Part shown: positions 2,262 to 9,306 of the stretch, piece by piece
Numbering within the stretch: the first letter of the stretch is position 1
Layout of the letters: each line of letters begins with the position of its first letter
NCBI GenBank assembly: GCA_903927615.1
Contig: CAIYNU010000022.1
Span: 124,001 to 188,000, forward strand
Direction: 5' to 3'
DNA: 64,000 nt
DNA from: an uncultured Rhodospirillales bacterium
Lineage (GTDB): Bacteria; Pseudomonadota; Alphaproteobacteria; Azospirillales; Azospirillaceae
The notes under the pieces: model-generated
Told to the model about the DNA's origin: nothing
Database searches by the model: none
Seen by the model: only the letters and a program-made list of their open reading frames with translations
Made by a program: the position numbers and the translations under genes

Positions 2262-2286
2262 GGGCGTCAGTTTCGACCTGACGCCC
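2262..2286. terminator. Hairpin between convergent transcripts
   Basis: GGGCGTCAG (2262-2270) and CTGACGCCC (2278-2286) form a perfect 9-bp stem with a 7-base loop. The hairpin overlaps the stop codon of the cyclase-like gene and lies 36 bases after the precursor-like ORF, so it could end both transcripts. There is no T-run. Confidence 0.45.
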
Positions 2287-4216
2287 GCCGGAGGAAATGC
2301 AGGCCCGAGACAGCCCGAGACAGTTTGCTGCAAAACCGCCGGGAGGTTTCATCGGCCCCGTCGTCGGTGCTCGGAAAAGCGTCCAGCGTTTCCCGTATGC
2401 CCCGCAGGTCAAACAGGCCGAGGGCTTCAGGCACCTCGGCCATTCTGGTCAATTCACCCTCGAGGGCCGGCAAGGCTTCTTTCATCACAAGATGCCAGTC
2501 GGCATTCTGATAGCCGGTCCGGTCGGATTGAATCACTTCAGACGGTAGCCAGTCGCTGAACGCCGAGCGGAACAAACCCCGGAAACGGCCATCCCGGAAC
2601 TGTTCCCGCAACGGCACACCAAGGCAAAACCTCGCGACCCGAAGGTCAATGGCCGGGTGGCGGCAATCGATGCCAAAGGCGGCCAGATCGCCCTTGTCAA
2701 AGTTGGCGAGATCGGGTCCGAACATTCTGTCGCATTGCCACTGGCGTGTTTCCGGGCGCAAGGCCAGGGGCACATCCAGCCCCAACGCGCGCAACCGTGC
2801 CTGGGTATCGGCGGCCATAAAACGGTCGCGATTGATGAAGGTTCCGGGCTGCGGTCCGGCCGTCCCGTCACTGTCCTTGCCACGCATCAGGCGGCGCAAC
2901 TGGCCCCAACGGGCCTCGCCGACGCCCCACCGTAACGTCAGCTTGAGGGCCTTCATGCGGCCAAGGCTCCAATCCCCCCGATGGGCGGCCAGCGACTTGG
3001 CGAGTTCCAACCATTGCCGTCCCTGAACCAGTTCGAGAAAATAGCCGTTACCCCGAAAGCTGATGGTACAATTTCCCATTTCACCGGTTAGCAGGACACC
3101 AATCCCCTCGTTCCGGGCCTGTTGCAGGATTTCATCCATCCAAGGTCCGCCAACGGGATTGAGCAAGGGCCGATCACTATAAAAAAAGTGGCGATCCAGC
3201 ACGTCGATCAACCGCCCCTGGGGAGCGGTGACCAGGCGATGGTGGATGTTGGAATAGCGCGCGGCAACCAGCGCCGCAATGGGCCCCTCGTCGGTCAGCA
3301 ACTTTTGGTTCTGACGCGGGCAAGAGCCTTGGCGGGGGACGGCCGTGAACGCTGTGAGTTTCGCGTTGCGTTCGGCTAGGACACGGGCAGCGCCAGCGGT
3401 GATCGCTGAACTGTCGTAACCGGCCGACAGGTAACTGCCGACGGCTTTATCCGTGCGCAGCATCGCGCGCACCGCCACCGTCAAAGTCTCGCGCAATCCC
3501 TCAGCATACTCGTGGCTATGGCGAAAGCGGAGGAGCGGGGCCGCCAGGGGATCCCAGTATTGTCTTGATGTCATACCGCCGTCGGCGCGTATGATCAGCA
3601 CGTGGCCCTTGTCCACGCCTTCGATGTCCGCGAAATAGCTGTGAGTCCCGCGCGAGATCAGCAGCGAGAAGTCGCGCATCCGGGAGTCATCCGGCCGCAT
3701 GGGAATTTCGGGCAAGGCCAGCAATCCCTTGGGCATGGTCGAGAACGCGAACCAGTCCGCCGCGGCATGAAAGAACAGCGGCCTTACGCCGAAATGATCG
3801 CGCACCAGAGTCAGCGTGCGGTCGACACCGTCCCACACCGCGAAGCAGAACGGCCCGACCAGACGCTCGACCACCGCCACGCCCCAGTGCTCATACCCGG
3901 CCAGCAGAAGCGCCGAGTCCGCCATGCCCGCGACTCTGTCGTGAGACAAATTCAGGCTCGCCGCCAACGCCTCCCGATTGTCGATCCGCACATCGGCCAC
4001 CAGGGTGATGCGCCCCCCGCAACCGGACAATGGCTGGCGATCGAAGCGATCCTCGGGCACGGTATGGGTCAGGCCGCTGGCCAGAGCCACCGCCCCATCG
4101 TCCCAGAAACCGGTACGGTCCCGAGCATAAAGGGACAACCTGGCCTGCATCCGGCTAACGCGATCCAAGGCACCCGGGCGTCCATCAAAATGCCATATGC
4201 CGGAGATTGCCGTCAC
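2267..4216 (-). CDS. Asparagine synthetase-like protein, lasso cyclase type
   Basis: This 649-residue protein has an N-terminal glutaminase-like (GATase II) domain (about 1-200, with VADVRIDNREAL and GPFCFAVWD) and an ATP-pyrophosphatase domain with SAGYDS at 264-269, the AMP-forming P-loop of asparagine synthetases. It begins MTAISGIW, not M-C-G-I, so the catalytic Cys2 is missing and it probably cannot hydrolyse glutamine. That state is typical of lasso-peptide macrolactam synthetases (McjC type), which activate an Asp or Glu side chain and close the ring on the core N-terminus. It lies 57 bases downstream of a B2-like gene, supporting this. A stand-alone amidotransferase acting on a surface glycan is the alternative. 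Confidence 0.75.
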   Translation of the reverse strand: MTAISGIWHFDGRPGALDRVSRMQARLSLYARDRTGFWDDGAVALASGLTHTVPEDRFDRQPLSGCGGRITLVADVRIDNREALAASLNLSHDRVAGMADSALLLAGYEHWGVAVVERLVGPFCFAVWDGVDRTLTLVRDHFGVRPLFFHAAADWFAFSTMPKGLLALPEIPMRPDDSRMRDFSLLISRGTHSYFADIEGVDKGHVLIIRADGGMTSRQYWDPLAAPLLRFRHSHEYAEGLRETLTVAVRAMLRTDKAVGSYLSAGYDSSAITAGAARVLAERNAKLTAFTAVPRQGSCPRQNQKLLTDEGPIAALVAARYSNIHHRLVTAPQGRLIDVLDRHFFYSDRPLLNPVGGPWMDEILQQARNEGIGVLLTGEMGNCTISFRGNGYFLELVQGRQWLELAKSLAAHRGDWSLGRMKALKLTLRWGVGEARWGQLRRLMRGKDSDGTAGPQPGTFINRDRFMAADTQARLRALGLDVPLALRPETRQWQCDRMFGPDLANFDKGDLAAFGIDCRHPAIDLRVARFCLGVPLREQFRDGRFRGLFRSAFSDWLPSEVIQSDRTGYQNADWHLVMKEALPALEGELTRMAEVPEALGLFDLRGIRETLDAFPSTDDGADETSRRFCSKLSRAVSGLHFLRRASGRN

Positions 4217-4273
4217 AAGATCACGCCTTTATTTTCAGAAATTTTAAAGAACGGCCATCAAGAAAAAAATCCA

Positions 4274-4741
4274 TTACCGGGCAAATACCCCGATTGGCAC
4301 AAAACCGGCCCGGGCCTTTTCGCCTGTTACGACGGTTTCCCGAGAAACACACCAGGCATGGGCGCTCAGCACACCGAGGTCATCTTTCGCAACTCCGAAA
4401 TGAACGTCCGCCGGCAAGCCACGCCGGCCCAGCATCAGACTGGCTGCTACCGCCTGTTGCAAACAAACCGCGCGAAAGGGCGCGACTTTGCAGCCCCGCG
4501 TCACCGCGTGCTGCACCGCCCTGACCACCGGGACAACCGTCGCCTGATCCGACCGGGCCCCCGCTTGTGCCCCGGCCTTCTCGAAGCGCGGGTGCAATCC
4601 CAGGCGTGCCATGGCTTGAGCAAAGGGAAACACCATCAGTACAAATCTGGCCACTGCCAAGGCAACCAAAGCCTCGACAACCATCCGACGTTCCACCGGC
4701 GACAAACGCCACGCCTTTTGAACCACGCCCTTCAGAACCAT
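4274..4741 (-). CDS. Lasso peptide B2-type protease (transglutaminase-like fold)
   Basis: From ATG 4741 (GGGAG ten bases upstream) the protein has 155 residues. Residues 90-131 contain RAVCLQQAVAASLMLGRRG, GVAKDD and LSAHAWCV, matching the Cys93 and His128 positions of the McjB C-terminal (Transglut_core3) fold, which removes the leader peptide during lasso maturation. The RRE (PqqD-like, B1) part that binds the leader in full-length McjB is absent, and no separate B1 gene is seen in the 280 bases upstream. It forms an operon with the cyclase-like gene. The frame remains open upstream to 5023, but that extension does not resemble an RRE. Confidence 0.72.
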   Translation of the reverse strand: MVLKGVVQKAWRLSPVERRMVVEALVALAVARFVLMVFPFAQAMARLGLHPRFEKAGAQAGARSDQATVVPVVRAVQHAVTRGCKVAPFRAVCLQQAVAASLMLGRRGLPADVHFGVAKDDLGVLSAHAWCVSRETVVTGEKARAGFVPIGVFAR

Positions 4742-5023: not shown

Positions 5024-6073
5024 ATGCGACTGTCATTTCTCGAACTCTTCAGTGATCAGCCGGGGCAAATCCGGGGCAAGGCGATCGGGCTGTCGCTGGT
5101 GCTGGTCGGCGCCAATGCAGCGGCTTGGATTTGGGCGCTGGTGGCGTTCCGGGACTACCCGTTGCTGTTGGGCACGGCGCTGCTGGCTTACAGCTTTGGA
5201 CTGCGGCATGCGGTTGACGCCGACCATATCGCCGCCATCGACAACGTGACGCGCAAGCTGATGCAGGCCGGGAGCCGCCCGGTGGCGGTTGGGTTCTTCT
5301 TTTCCCTCGGTCACTCGGCGGTGGTGGTCCTGTTGTCGGTAGGAATCGTCCTGGCCACGAACCTGCTCCAGGACAACCTCGACACCCTGAAGGCGGTGGG
5401 CGGCGTCTTCGGCACGGCGGTTTCCGCCAGTTTCCTGTTGGCTATCGCCGCTGTGAACTTGGTGATCCTGATCGGCCTGACGCAAAGCTTCCGGAGGGTG
5501 AAGACCGGCGGCAAGCTCCAGGAAGAGGACTTGTCCGGCATGTTCACGGGCGGCGGACTCATGGCGCGGCTATTCCGCCCGCTGTTCGCCCTGGTCAACC
5601 GCAGTTGGTGGATGTTTCCCCTGGGCTTCCTGTTCGGCCTCGGCTTCGACACCGCCAGCGAAGTCGGATTGCTGGGCATTTCAGCCAGCCAAGCCTCCCA
5701 AGGCCTGCCGGTCTGGAACATCATGGTGTTCCCGGTCCTCTTCGCGGTCGGCATGGCTTTGGTCGATACCGCGGACGGCATCCTGATGCTGGGTGCCTAT
5801 GGCTGGGCCTTCATCAAGCCCATCCGCAAGCTCTACTACAACATGACCATCACCCTGGTTTCGGTGGTCATCGCGGCATTGGTGGGCGGCATTGAAACAC
5901 TGGGTCTGCTCGAGGACCAATTCGGCTTCACCGGCAGCTTCTGGAACGCGGTTGGCAACCTGAACAATAATTTCGGCACCATCGGTTATGCCATCGTCGC
6001 CCTGTTCGTCTTCAGTTGGCTGGCATCCCTGTTGCTCTGGCGGATCAAGGGCTATCACCGGTTGGAGGCTTGA
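5024..6073 (+). CDS. hoxN: NicO/HoxN-type nickel/cobalt permease
   Basis: The 349-residue protein carries the NiCoT signature RHAVDADHIAAIDN (61-74) in the second membrane helix and FGLGFDTASEVGLLG in a later helix, with about eight hydrophobic segments in all. The His and Asp residues of the signature select Ni2+ or Co2+ for uptake across the inner membrane. AGGGAGG lies 7 bases before the ATG. No hydrogenase or urease gene is in the window, so which metalloenzyme it serves is unknown. No cobalamin or NiCo riboswitch motif is visible upstream. Assignment to the family is firm; the choice between nickel and cobalt is not. Confidence 0.9.
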   Translation: MRLSFLELFSDQPGQIRGKAIGLSLVLVGANAAAWIWALVAFRDYPLLLGTALLAYSFGLRHAVDADHIAAIDNVTRKLMQAGSRPVAVGFFFSLGHSAVVVLLSVGIVLATNLLQDNLDTLKAVGGVFGTAVSASFLLAIAAVNLVILIGLTQSFRRVKTGGKLQEEDLSGMFTGGGLMARLFRPLFALVNRSWWMFPLGFLFGLGFDTASEVGLLGISASQASQGLPVWNIMVFPVLFAVGMALVDTADGILMLGAYGWAFIKPIRKLYYNMTITLVSVVIAALVGGIETLGLLEDQFGFTGSFWNAVGNLNNNFGTIGYAIVALFVFSWLASLLLWRIKGYHRLEA

Positions 6074-6158
6074 TCGGGGTGGGCAACGGACAGGAGCGGA
6101 CACCCATGGACGCTTTGGCCTTGCCCTGAATACCCCGGTCGCCTTCATGCTGAACCGA

Positions 6159-6182
6159 CCAGCCGGCGAGAGAGCCGGCTGG
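6159..6182. terminator. Hairpin between hoxN and the convergent small gene
   Basis: CCAGCCGGC (6159-6167) and GCCGGCTGG (6174-6182) form a perfect 9-bp stem with a 6-base loop. It lies 86 bases after hoxN and directly after the stop of the convergent small gene. There is no T-run on either side. Confidence 0.45.
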
Positions 6183-6183
6183 A

Positions 6184-6357
6184 TCACCAATTATGATGGT
6201 GATGACCCTCACAGAACCACCACGGACCGCAACAGCCAGAAAGGATAATGACCGCAAACGCGCCCAGAAGCAGGCCGTAGACTGCCGATGCCGTGCCCCG
6301 TTTGCAGTTCAAAGCCAGGCAAATATAAGTGACCAGATGTTTGATAGCGGTACTCAT
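6184..6357 (-). CDS. Small Cys/His-rich membrane protein or lipoprotein, 57 aa
   Basis: An ATG at 6355-6357 follows an excellent ribosome site (GAGGAGGG, 6 bases away) and opens a 57-codon frame. After K19-R20 comes a hydrophobic segment (about 22-39) ending LSGC, a plausible lipobox with Cys42, then CCGPWWFCEGHHHHNW to the end. Three Cys and four consecutive His in the last 16 residues suggest metal binding at the outer face of a membrane. It is convergent with the nickel permease gene, not in an operon with it. The protein may be either a transmembrane peptide or a very short lipoprotein. I recognise no family. Confidence 0.65.
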   Translation of the reverse strand: MSTAIKHLVTYICLALNCKRGTASAVYGLLLGAFAVIILSGCCGPWWFCEGHHHHNW

Positions 6358-6564
6358 GAACGATCCCTCCTCTTTGACCGGACGACCAGTTTCGCGCGCC
6401 CTTCATAGCACCGGGCTCCGGTGGTCGCTGTGATGGTCCTCACGGAGCCCTGTCGATGCTAAGCAGCTTCGATGTCCCTTGTCGAGCCGCAGGCCACAGA
6501 CGGATTACCAGTCCCACAGGCAACAATCACACCAAGCGCCGCGCCAGATCGATCACCAGCGCCC

Positions 6565-9306
6565 TCACGACGCAGTCGCCAGCACCCCCCGTAGCCGATA
6601 GAGCGCGTCCAATGCCTCGCGCGGGGTCAGTTCGTCGGGGTTAAGCTGACGCAGCGCCAGCTCCACCGCCGAAGGTGCCGCCGGCGGACTGGCCGGCGCG
6701 GCCAGCGCGGCCGGACGTCGGACGGCCGCGGAAAACAGGGGCAGATCGTCCACCAGGCGCGTCATGGCCGTGGCATGATCGCCGGACTCCAGAATCCGCA
6801 AAACCTCTTCGGCCCGGGCGATGACCGCCACCGGCAGCCCGGCCAGGCGGGCAACATGAATGCCGTAACTGCGATCGGCGGTGCCGGCCACCACCTCGTG
6901 CAAAAAAACCACGTCGCCGTGCCACTCCTTGATCCGCATGGTCTGGCAGGTCAGGCGGGGCAGTTTGCCGGCAAGCTGGGTCAACTCGTGGTAATGGGTG
7001 GCAAACAGCGCCCGGCAACGGGTCACGTTGTGAAGGTGCTCGACGCAGGCCCACGCGATCGACAGGCCGTCAAAGGTCGCGGTGCCACGACCGATTTCGT
7101 CCAAAATGACCAGCGCCCGGGGGCCGGCCTGGTTCAGGATGGCCGCGGTTTCAACCATTTCCACCATAAACGTCGACCGGCCGCGCGCCAGATCGTCGGC
7201 GGCGCCGACCCGACTGAACAGGCGATCCACGACCCCGAACCGGGCGGACGCCGCCGGCACATAGCTGCCCATCTGGCCCAGAATCGCAATCACCGCGTTC
7301 TGGCGCAGGAATGTGCTTTTGCCCGCCATATTGGGGCCGGTAAGGAGCCATAACCGACGTTCGGGGGCGAGGCTGCAATCGTTGGCAACGAACGCCGGGC
7401 CACCGGCCGCGTCCAGCGCCGCCTCAACCACCGGGTGGCGGCCGGCCTGGATCTCGAAGTCAAGGCCGTCATCAATCACCGGCCGGCACCAACGCCGCTC
7501 GGCCGCCAAGGCCGCCAAGCCACACGCGACATCAAGGGCGGCCAGCGCCCGCGCCAGCGCCCCCAACGGCCCGGCCCGTCCGACCACTTCAGCCACCAGA
7601 TCGGCGAATAACTCCAGTTCCAGTGCCAGTGCCCGGTCGCCAGCCTCGGAAAGCTTGCGTTCCAACTCAGCCAGTTCGAGCGTCCCGAATCGGATCGCAT
7701 TGGCCATGGTCTGACGGTGGATGAAAAGTTCCCGGTTGGCGCCCGTCAACAACTTGTCGCCATGCGCCGCCGTCACTTCGACATGATAGCCCAGCACATT
7801 GTTGTGTTTGACCTTGAGCCCGCCGACCCCGGTTCTTTCAATATAGCGCGCCTGTAAGCCGGCAATCATCCGCCGGCCCTCGTCGCGAAGGGTAAACAAC
7901 TCGTCCAGCACTTCGGAATAGCCTCGGGCGATGAACCCGCCGTCGCGGGTCAGCAGTGGCAGATCCGTACCCAGCGCCCGCATCAGGCGCGCCGCAAAGA
8001 TCGCTTCACTGTCACCAGGCTGACCGAGATCAGCCATCAGCCGCGTGAGGTCCGCCGGCCAGGCCGTCGTGGCGGCGGTCGGGGCAAGCAGATCACGTAA
8101 CGCGGCGGTCCCCCCCAAGGCATCGCGCACCGCGGCCAGGTCGCGCGGCCCGCCCCGATCGAGACCGATCCGCGAGCAGGCGCGCTCCAGGTCCGGGATC
8201 TGCTTCAGCAGGTCCCGCACCGCGTCGCGCAGGGTTTCATCGCCCAAGAAGTACCCGATCACATCAAGCCTGCGGTCGATAGCAGAGCCGTCGGTGAGCG
8301 GCGTCGCCAGACGCGCCGCCAGCAGTCGCGCGCCCGGACCGGTCACGGTACGATCAATAACCGAGAGCAGGCTGCCGCGATGCTCCCCAGCCAGCGTCCT
8401 GGTCAGTTCCAGGTTGCGGCGGGTGGCGGCGTCGATTTCCAGTGTGGTGCCCGGCAGCACCCTATAAGGCGGGGCCAGGGTCGGCGCCTTGCCCTTCTGG
8501 GTCAGTTCCACGTAGCCCACCAGCGCGCCGGCCGCCGCGATCTCGGCGCGGCTGAACGACCCAAAGGCATCCAGGGTGCCGACCCGGTACAGGGCCAGCA
8601 GACGCCGCCGTCCGTTCTCGCTGTCAAACCGGGCGTCGGGTTGGACCGTCAGCCGTGGCTTCCACTCGGCCAGCAGCTCGAAGATTTCCGGGCGTTGGAC
8701 CAACCGTTCGGGGACCAGGAGTTCCCGGGCGTCCAGTCGGGCCAGCGCCGCGTTCAGTCCGGTTTGGAGCACCGGTTGCACCGCCACTTCGCCAGTGGAC
8801 AGGTCCAGCCAGGCCAGCCCTACTTCGCCGGCGGCCTCGGCCACCGCCGCCAACAGATTGTGGCGGCGGGCGTCCAGCAAACTGTCCTCGGTGATGGTGC
8901 CCTGCGTCACGATGCGGGTGACGTCGCGCCGGACCACCGCTTTCGAGCCCCGTTTGCGCGCCTCGGCCGGGTCCTCCAATTGCTCGCAAATGGCTACCCG
9001 GAAACCCTGGCGAATCAGGCGCAGCAGGTAGCCTTCATGGCTATGCACCGGCACCCCGCACATGGGGATATCTTCACCCTCGTGTCGGCCCCGACGAGTC
9101 AACGTGATGTCAAGGGCGCGGGCCGCCAGCACCGCGTCATCGAAGAACATCTCGTAAAAATCGCCCATTCGGTAGAACAGCAACGTATCGGGATACGCCT
9201 GTTTGATCTCCAGAAACTGGGCCATCACCGGCGTCGCCCCACCACCGGGCAGCGGCGCGGCGGCGGAAAGAACAGCGGGGGACGGAAGCGCAAAATCGTC
9301 GGCCAT
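6565..9306 (-). CDS. mutS: DNA mismatch repair protein MutS
   Basis: This 913-residue protein recognises mismatched bases and starts methyl-directed repair. The mismatch-contacting Phe-x-Glu lies in GDFYEMF (residues 49-54), and the ATPase part has [13 protein letters not shown] (Walker A, near 655), [15 protein letters not shown] (Walker B) and ATHYHEL. The length is slightly above the usual 850-880 because of about 25 extra N-terminal residues and some insertions. The ATG at 9306 directly precedes ADDFALPSP; residue 28 is a possible later start. No mutL is nearby. Confidence 0.97.

Follow-up and report, generated by a model that had tools for sequence, protein, structure and literature searches.

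We analysed a window of 64,000 nucleotides, the whole stretch of DNA considered here, from a 4.57-Mb draft genome in 104 contigs. The gene of interest is a 57-codon ORF on the minus strand (6184-6357), with an ATG start and a TGA stop. A Shine-Dalgarno sequence, AGGAGGG (6365-6371, minus strand), is placed 7 nt upstream of the ATG, which bears out the ribosome site noticed in an earlier sequence-only reading, one that reported this 57-aa frame and gave no strand. The ORF follows mutS, which is encoded on that strand too, and it is convergent, as that reading also had it, with hoxN (5024-6073, plus strand), whose product belongs to the NicO family of nickel permeases (PF03824, E 2.7e-102). Between the two convergent genes there is a 9-bp perfect inverted repeat (6159-6182) that may serve as a shared terminator; it has no T run and is absent from the output of the terminator scan. 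Upstream of the ORF, a promoter scan gave the hexamers TCGACA-18-TAGCAT (6456-6485, minus strand), with 9/12 matches, which is weak evidence for a promoter. At 6410-6453, between this promoter-like site and the ribosome site, there is an imperfect inverted repeat of 11 nt (91%). Rfam at gathering scores gave no match within 5900-6700.

The 57-aa protein can be divided into a leader, a hydrophobic segment and a tail, all encoded on the minus strand. Codons 1-21 (6295-6357) form a leader like that of Flp prepilins, ending in KRG. Codons 22-41 (6235-6294) form a hydrophobic segment homologous to the core of Flp pilins but without the Glu at +5; the sequence-only reading was right that a hydrophobic helix is present and missed its homology to the pilin N-terminal helix. 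The lipobox-like LSGC that it noted is there at codons 39-42 (6232-6243), where the tail starts, and codons 42-57 (6187-6234) encode the Cys/Trp/His tail, CCGPWWFCEGHHHHNW, exactly as it stated. We considered an internal TTG start at codon 16, which would give a shorter lipoprotein signal, and rejected it: among the five family members described below, only the window has TTG at this codon, one member has GTG, and three have neither of these nor ATG, but all five have the upstream ATG. The AlphaFold model has helices at residues 2-15 and 20-39 and a disordered tail, and with a mean pLDDT of 62.6 (low confidence) this prediction decides nothing between the readings discussed below.

The tail pattern CCGP[W/G]WFC..HH.H..W is common to five genes in three of the five species of the genus examined, with one copy in the window's own genome and two copies each in the congeners G002 and G004. 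The sequence-only reading had named absence of the ORF from closely related genomes as grounds for refutation; relatives are indeed present in two of the four congeners, but at other places. Using the single sequence, a tblastn search covering 59 genomes (32 of which are listed at E up to 10) found relatives in two other species at 47-61% identity (E 9.3e-15 to 6.7e-22), with full-length relatives in the same genus only and a best outside match at E 0.0387 that we took as noise. With an alignment of the five members, a search of 82 genomes of the bacterial family returned the members at E 4.6e-31 to 3.5e-33, values from a model built on these same five, while the other two congeners, G001 and G003, gave Flp pilins only (E 5.7e-7 to 7.6e-11), and no partial tails were seen. 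Two matches in another genus, at E 0.0069 and 0.0071 in a search at E 0.01, were dropped; one of them has two internal stops. The order-level search, which used the identical set of 82 genomes at E 0.001, found this genus only, and in a class sample of 385 genomes at E 0.001 the window's own genome was the sole match, with up to 17 candidates scored per genome among the matches listed. A DNA-level pattern, CCGP-[W/G/C]-WFC, recovered these five loci and had no match in G001 or G003.

The single sequence had no match in the assembled genome contig collection, and the alignment matched four loci there in two assemblies, apparently the G002 and G004 contigs. Viral contigs and phages had no match to the family, and five plasmid records at E 0.9 to 8 were taken as noise. 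No Pfam or NCBIfam model matched the family above its cut-off; the best Pfam matches of the window protein were DUF2613 (E 0.022) and DUF1033 (E 0.094), both below the cut-off, and the best NCBIfam match, in one of the five members, had E 0.086. Looking for a common operator upstream of the five genes, we found no shared 8-mer when one mismatch was allowed (shuffled mean 0.25), and the two 10-mers shared with two mismatches compare with a shuffled mean of 0.7 and maximum of 3.

The alignment of the five members, which come from three draft assemblies, has no invariant column in residues 22-38. From L39 onward, 13 of the 19 columns are invariant (L39, G41, C42, C43, G44, P45, W47, F48, C49, H52, H53, H55 and W57), so that conservation starts at the -3 position of the lipobox. 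The pN/pS ratios follow the same division: calculated as uncorrected Nei-Gojobori proportions with all 10 member pairs pooled and with synonymous sites near saturation, pN/pS is 0.37 overall, 0.48 for codons 1-21, 0.60 for codons 22-40 and 0.08 for codons 41-57, the last value being favoured by the fact that members were recognised by their tails, so that sequences with decayed tails would go uncounted. A tail pN/pS of 0.08 leads us to reject both an ORF present by chance and a pilin copy in decay; the gene and its ribosome site are real, and the gene is under selection. A type I toxin was also considered and set aside, as we read the constraint on the tail, and not on the helix, as speaking against it.

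Flp pilins are subject to the opposite pattern of constraint. For the 28 pairs among eight Flp pilins of the genus, pN/pS is 0.55 in the leader, 0.14 in the hydrophobic segment and 0.67 in the tail, and for between-genome pairs only, the values are 0.59, 0.17 and 0.76. In a filament, the core helix of the subunits has to be preserved. The conserved filament-packing core expected of an Flp pilin is absent in the family (0.60 vs 0.14 for the hydrophobic segment). Thus, constraint has been transferred from the helix, where it lies in the pilins, to the tail, where it lies in the family.

That Flp pilins are the relevant comparison comes from several searches. In tblastn, Flp pilins of the same genus match the ORF at E 6.4e-7, and they appear among the weaker within-genus matches with sequences of the form MLT...ATYI.AALNCKRG directly followed by ATAIEYGLIAAGIAV..., while in the profile search an Flp pilin of the genus matches the family model at E 7.6e-11. 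Aligned by hhalign to the eight Flp pilins, residues 1-41 give a probability of 97.8% (E 8.4e-13, 49% identity). An all-frame profile scan of the window plus 22 loci, 23 sequences in all, in which the five members match by construction, found eight pilins at E 7e-4 or better, with the next match at E 0.7. By this profile homology of residues 1-41, the gene is a pilin descendant in which the C-terminal third has been replaced.

The family resembles Flp/Fap pilins (PF04964, type IVc/Tad) in being of similar length, 56-57 aa against 62-65 aa for the pilins of the genus, and in having a leader that ends in a basic residue and Gly with a hydrophobic helix straight after it. The Gly at the prepilin -1 position, G21, is invariant in the five members and is preceded by a basic residue in all of them. 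The differences are also clear. All three pilins scanned match PF04964 (E 5e-15 to 3.8e-17), but none of the five tail-bearing members does at E up to 10, and the tail is unrelated. The +5 residue is V or I in all five members compared with E in all eight Flp pilins of the genus. At +6 the members have Y (two), F (two) or V (one), and at +1 they have T, A or R. Glu or Asp at +5 with Tyr at +6 marks Flp pilins, as stated in an excerpt of PMC3244431, and in pilin filaments Glu+5 pairs with the N-terminus of a neighbouring subunit, according to an excerpt of PMC10191384.

We then compared the Tad genes of the five species. In G001 (contig C65) and G003 (C59), flp genes are found just ahead of cpaA, after a gene whose end is similar to the end of the OmpA-domain gene in the window's own genome. 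In the window's own genome (C58) and in G002 (C172), we saw no pilin frame on the coding strand of the slot ahead of cpaA, and profile matches there are no better than E 7; these slots are L089:5298-5714 in the own genome and L087 in G002. In the own genome two Flp genes are on C6, C58 has CpaA and CpaB, and the TadE-type genes are on C23, so that its true Flp genes also sit on a different contig from CpaA/CpaB, and this gene content may still allow it to make a Tad pilus. The two Flp genes on C6 are adjacent (L040:6519-7174) and near a gene for an Oxidored_q6-domain protein, the small-subunit type of hydrogenase or complex I. G002, listed as 91% complete, has TadE-type genes and CpaB and no Flp match above the cut-off. 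G004, listed as 99% complete, has no match to Flp at E 1, to TadE at E 0.1 or to CpaB at E 0.001. A24 peptidases are present in all five genomes, including the three carriers, and the single one found in G004 is long, with the N-terminal domain of PilD-type enzymes. Because G004 has two tail-bearing genes despite these three unfound Tad markers, calling the family a plain Tad pilin would not do. Among those neighbours of the five members that were annotated, none was recognised as a tad or pil gene.

The sequence-only reading had linked the ORF to nickel or cobalt from its convergence with hoxN, and under this explanation the product would be an accessory peptide of the neighbouring HoxN permease. 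In the window the two genes are adjacent and convergent, the tail is rich in potential His and Cys ligands, and hoxN relatives and the tail-bearing family occur in the same three of five species, the only finding that speaks for the link: there are two hoxN relatives in the own genome, one in G004 and one in G002, and none in G001 or G003. In an unrooted MutS tree, however, the three carriers are separated from G001 and G003 with a split support of 1.0 (MutS identities are 84-85% within the three carriers and 74-77% across the split), so the co-occurrence may reflect a single event. The MutS match in G001 (L078) carries one in-frame TAA. The hoxN relatives of the other carriers are on different contigs from the members, and the neighbouring hoxN is itself an extra copy that has diverged from the hoxN group of the three carriers, with 57-61% identity to the two full-length relatives and 54.5% to the longest piece from G002, whereas those three share 82-86% identity with one another. 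The G002 match is in three pieces and is perhaps broken or an assembly fault.

That reading had also proposed a search for homologues beside nickel transporters. When ORFs of at least 90 aa were searched for 4.3 to 6.3 kb on each side (one contig begins 503 bases upstream), none of the other four members had a relative of the window hoxN in its flanks, and no tail-bearing gene was found downstream of mutS (4.1 to 7.5 kb) in the four congeners. The five settings are unrelated, consisting of hoxN/mutS, an ABC exporter (nearest MsbA, below the cut-off) with a chemoreceptor gene, ftsK, DUF2383 with a lasso-cyclase-like gene, and hemD. HoxN/NiCoT permeases of the NicO family are therefore neighbours in the window only, with no conserved adjacency found. 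With unrelated settings and a divergent extra hoxN, a nickel or cobalt role has no independent support, and we regard the accessory-peptide explanation as highly unlikely. The earlier interpretation as a whole is partly supported: its description of the gene stands, and its nickel/cobalt link does not.

Other genes near the ORF suggest that it might instead encode a lasso-type precursor peptide, with the B2 and cyclase-like (asparagine synthase) genes at 2267-4741 (minus strand) as the biosynthetic genes; a gene for a family-41 glycosyltransferase (414-2333) comes after this pair. Both are on the strand of the ORF and 1.4 to 3.9 kb downstream of it, with hoxN between; the B2 protein matches NF033537 at 72.7 bits (cut-off 33) and the cyclase-like protein matches NF033535 at 291.8 bits, below the cut-off of 525. 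With a crude pattern scan we found no convincing precursor of the pair's own, and the member in G004 called G004b lies 1 kb from a cyclase-like gene (171.1 bits, below the cut-off). This G004 cyclase gene (L034:6846-8744), however, is directly preceded by another ORF that by eye looks like a precursor (L034:6629-6799, 56 aa), and among the other four members B2 relatives are in none of the flanks and cyclase relatives in one. A radical SAM gene follows the G004 cyclase gene on the other strand, and after the G004b tail-bearing gene, on the same strand, there is a 54-aa hydrophobic ORF with AGGAGG (L034:5452-5616, minus). Lasso cores have an acid at position 7-9, where we find one in four of the five members if the core starts at C42, and in all five if it starts at C43 or G44; the one member without an acid would count against the explanation if the core starts at C42. 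The leader also differs in that it is a pilin-type membrane helix. Lasso leaders have Thr at the penultimate position, according to an excerpt of PMC10368454, whose title names an Ile case, but the residue at -2 of C42 is Thr in only one of the five members and Ser in four. The likeness to known lasso precursors is that the gene is short and has B2 and cyclase-like genes nearby in the window, and on these comparisons it is very improbable that the ORF encodes one.

The reading we prefer, tentatively and at a little below an even chance, is that a former pilin gene now encodes a very small membrane peptide that is probably a lipoprotein and has a Cys/Trp/His tail suited to metal or redox chemistry. 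We compared the sequences with the PROSITE lipobox (PS51257), in its core pattern and with a rule that the Cys is within 15-35 and K/R in the first 7 residues. C42 fits the core pattern in all five members and no Cys does so in any of the eight pilins, and L[S/T]GC is kept in every member. The loss of Glu+5 removes the only acid in residues 22-41, a stretch that is uncharged except for one Arg in one member, and the stretch then resembles a lipoprotein signal. Some features count against this reading. C42 is beyond the 15-35 range in all five members (K/R is in the first 7 in four of them), the n-region, with 21 residues, is longer than a lipoprotein would usually have, and a plain lipoprotein signal needs no Gly at the prepilin-peptidase position, where G21 is invariant. 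Against an exit from pilin function we must also count the A24 peptidases in all three carriers and the Flp, CpaA, CpaB and TadE-type genes of the own genome.

The same sequences could instead belong to an unlipidated single-pass inner-membrane mini-protein, N-in with a periplasmic tail, in which G21 and LSGC would be packing residues and not processing sites. The position of C42 outside the usual lipoprotein range would suit such a protein, as would the low-confidence model of a helix at 20-39 followed by an unstructured tail, and Trp and Phe soon after a helix would suit the membrane interface; the tail itself is equally compatible with it. However, L[S/T]GC is kept in all five members, as a lipobox would be, while no position in 22-38 is invariant, and we consider the unlipidated anchor somewhat unlikely. 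If G21 is a processing site, the product might be a minor or tip pilin of a non-canonical kind, which CpaA or PilD would cleave after G21 and which would carry the tail on a filament. The Flp homology, the invariant G21 with its preceding basic residue, the A24 peptidases of all five genomes and the pilus genes kept in the own genome are consistent with such a pilin, and tip subunits without Glu5 exist, as described in an excerpt of PMC10191384. But the helix that would form the filament core is the least conserved part, opposite to pilins, only about 16 residues would follow the helix, and +1 is T, A or R. The two copies in G004, which has no Flp, TadE or CpaB match, and the lack of recognised tad or pil genes among the annotated neighbours also speak against a minor pilin, and we rate it as distinctly improbable. 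From the L-[S/T]-G-C conserved in five of five members and none of eight pilins, the lack of an invariant residue in 22-38, and the loss of the acid, we favour lipidation over the unlipidated anchor, with the processed minor pilin third.

In its boldest form the lipoprotein reading is a switch of export class, from a type IVc prepilin leader and helix to a lipoprotein signal, that would deliver a metal- or redox-active lipopeptide of 15-16 residues to the envelope, the family being kept where Tad markers are unfound; we hold this fuller scheme to be possible and put it forward with caution. In the reading that we prefer, the gene, a descendant of an Flp (type IVc) pilin gene, would no longer encode a filament subunit. 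The old pilin leader and hydrophobic helix would serve for N-in export, C42 of L-[S/T]-G-C would be lipidated, and the precursor would be cut before C42, leaving the lipopeptide on the periplasmic face of the membrane. The sequence-only reading gave 16 residues for the mature form if it is a lipoprotein, and from C42 to W57 this is arithmetically right. At the membrane surface, C43, C49, the Trp/Phe cluster, H52, H53 and H55 could together make up a small site for metal binding or redox chemistry, in which the two Cys and the three invariant His would bind metal or do thiol chemistry while the Trp/Phe cluster faces the membrane. Lipidation, topology, location, export and the metal or redox role are all predictions from sequence. 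Entericidin-sized small lipoproteins exist, and the family would resemble small bacterial lipoproteins (signal peptidase II substrates) in having L[S/T]GC after a hydrophobic stretch and a tiny mature part, while differing from them in its long n-region, its pilin ancestry, the Cys at +2 and the Cys/Trp/His tail.

Flp pilins and small lipoproteins are already known, and the new element is the conversion of one into the other. In the literature searched we found no paper with the tail strings, none on pilin exaptation or a repurposed pilin, none on a small His-rich lipoprotein with nickel, and none on entericidin-type small lipoproteins in alphaproteobacteria; for an Flp pilin with a lipoprotein signal peptide, the literature searched gave only a phrase in the reference list of PMC3244431, as excerpted. 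If the conversion is true, then one genus shows a filament subunit becoming a different envelope peptide, and its five species may hold possible intermediate states: a true pilin in the tad slot, an emptied slot, converted copies, and genomes in which Tad markers are unfound. Small genes that are missed by family models can be traced in this way through the comparison of congeners. The tail itself is a compact, conserved Cys/Trp/His sequence that could be made as a peptide for direct metal or redox chemistry.
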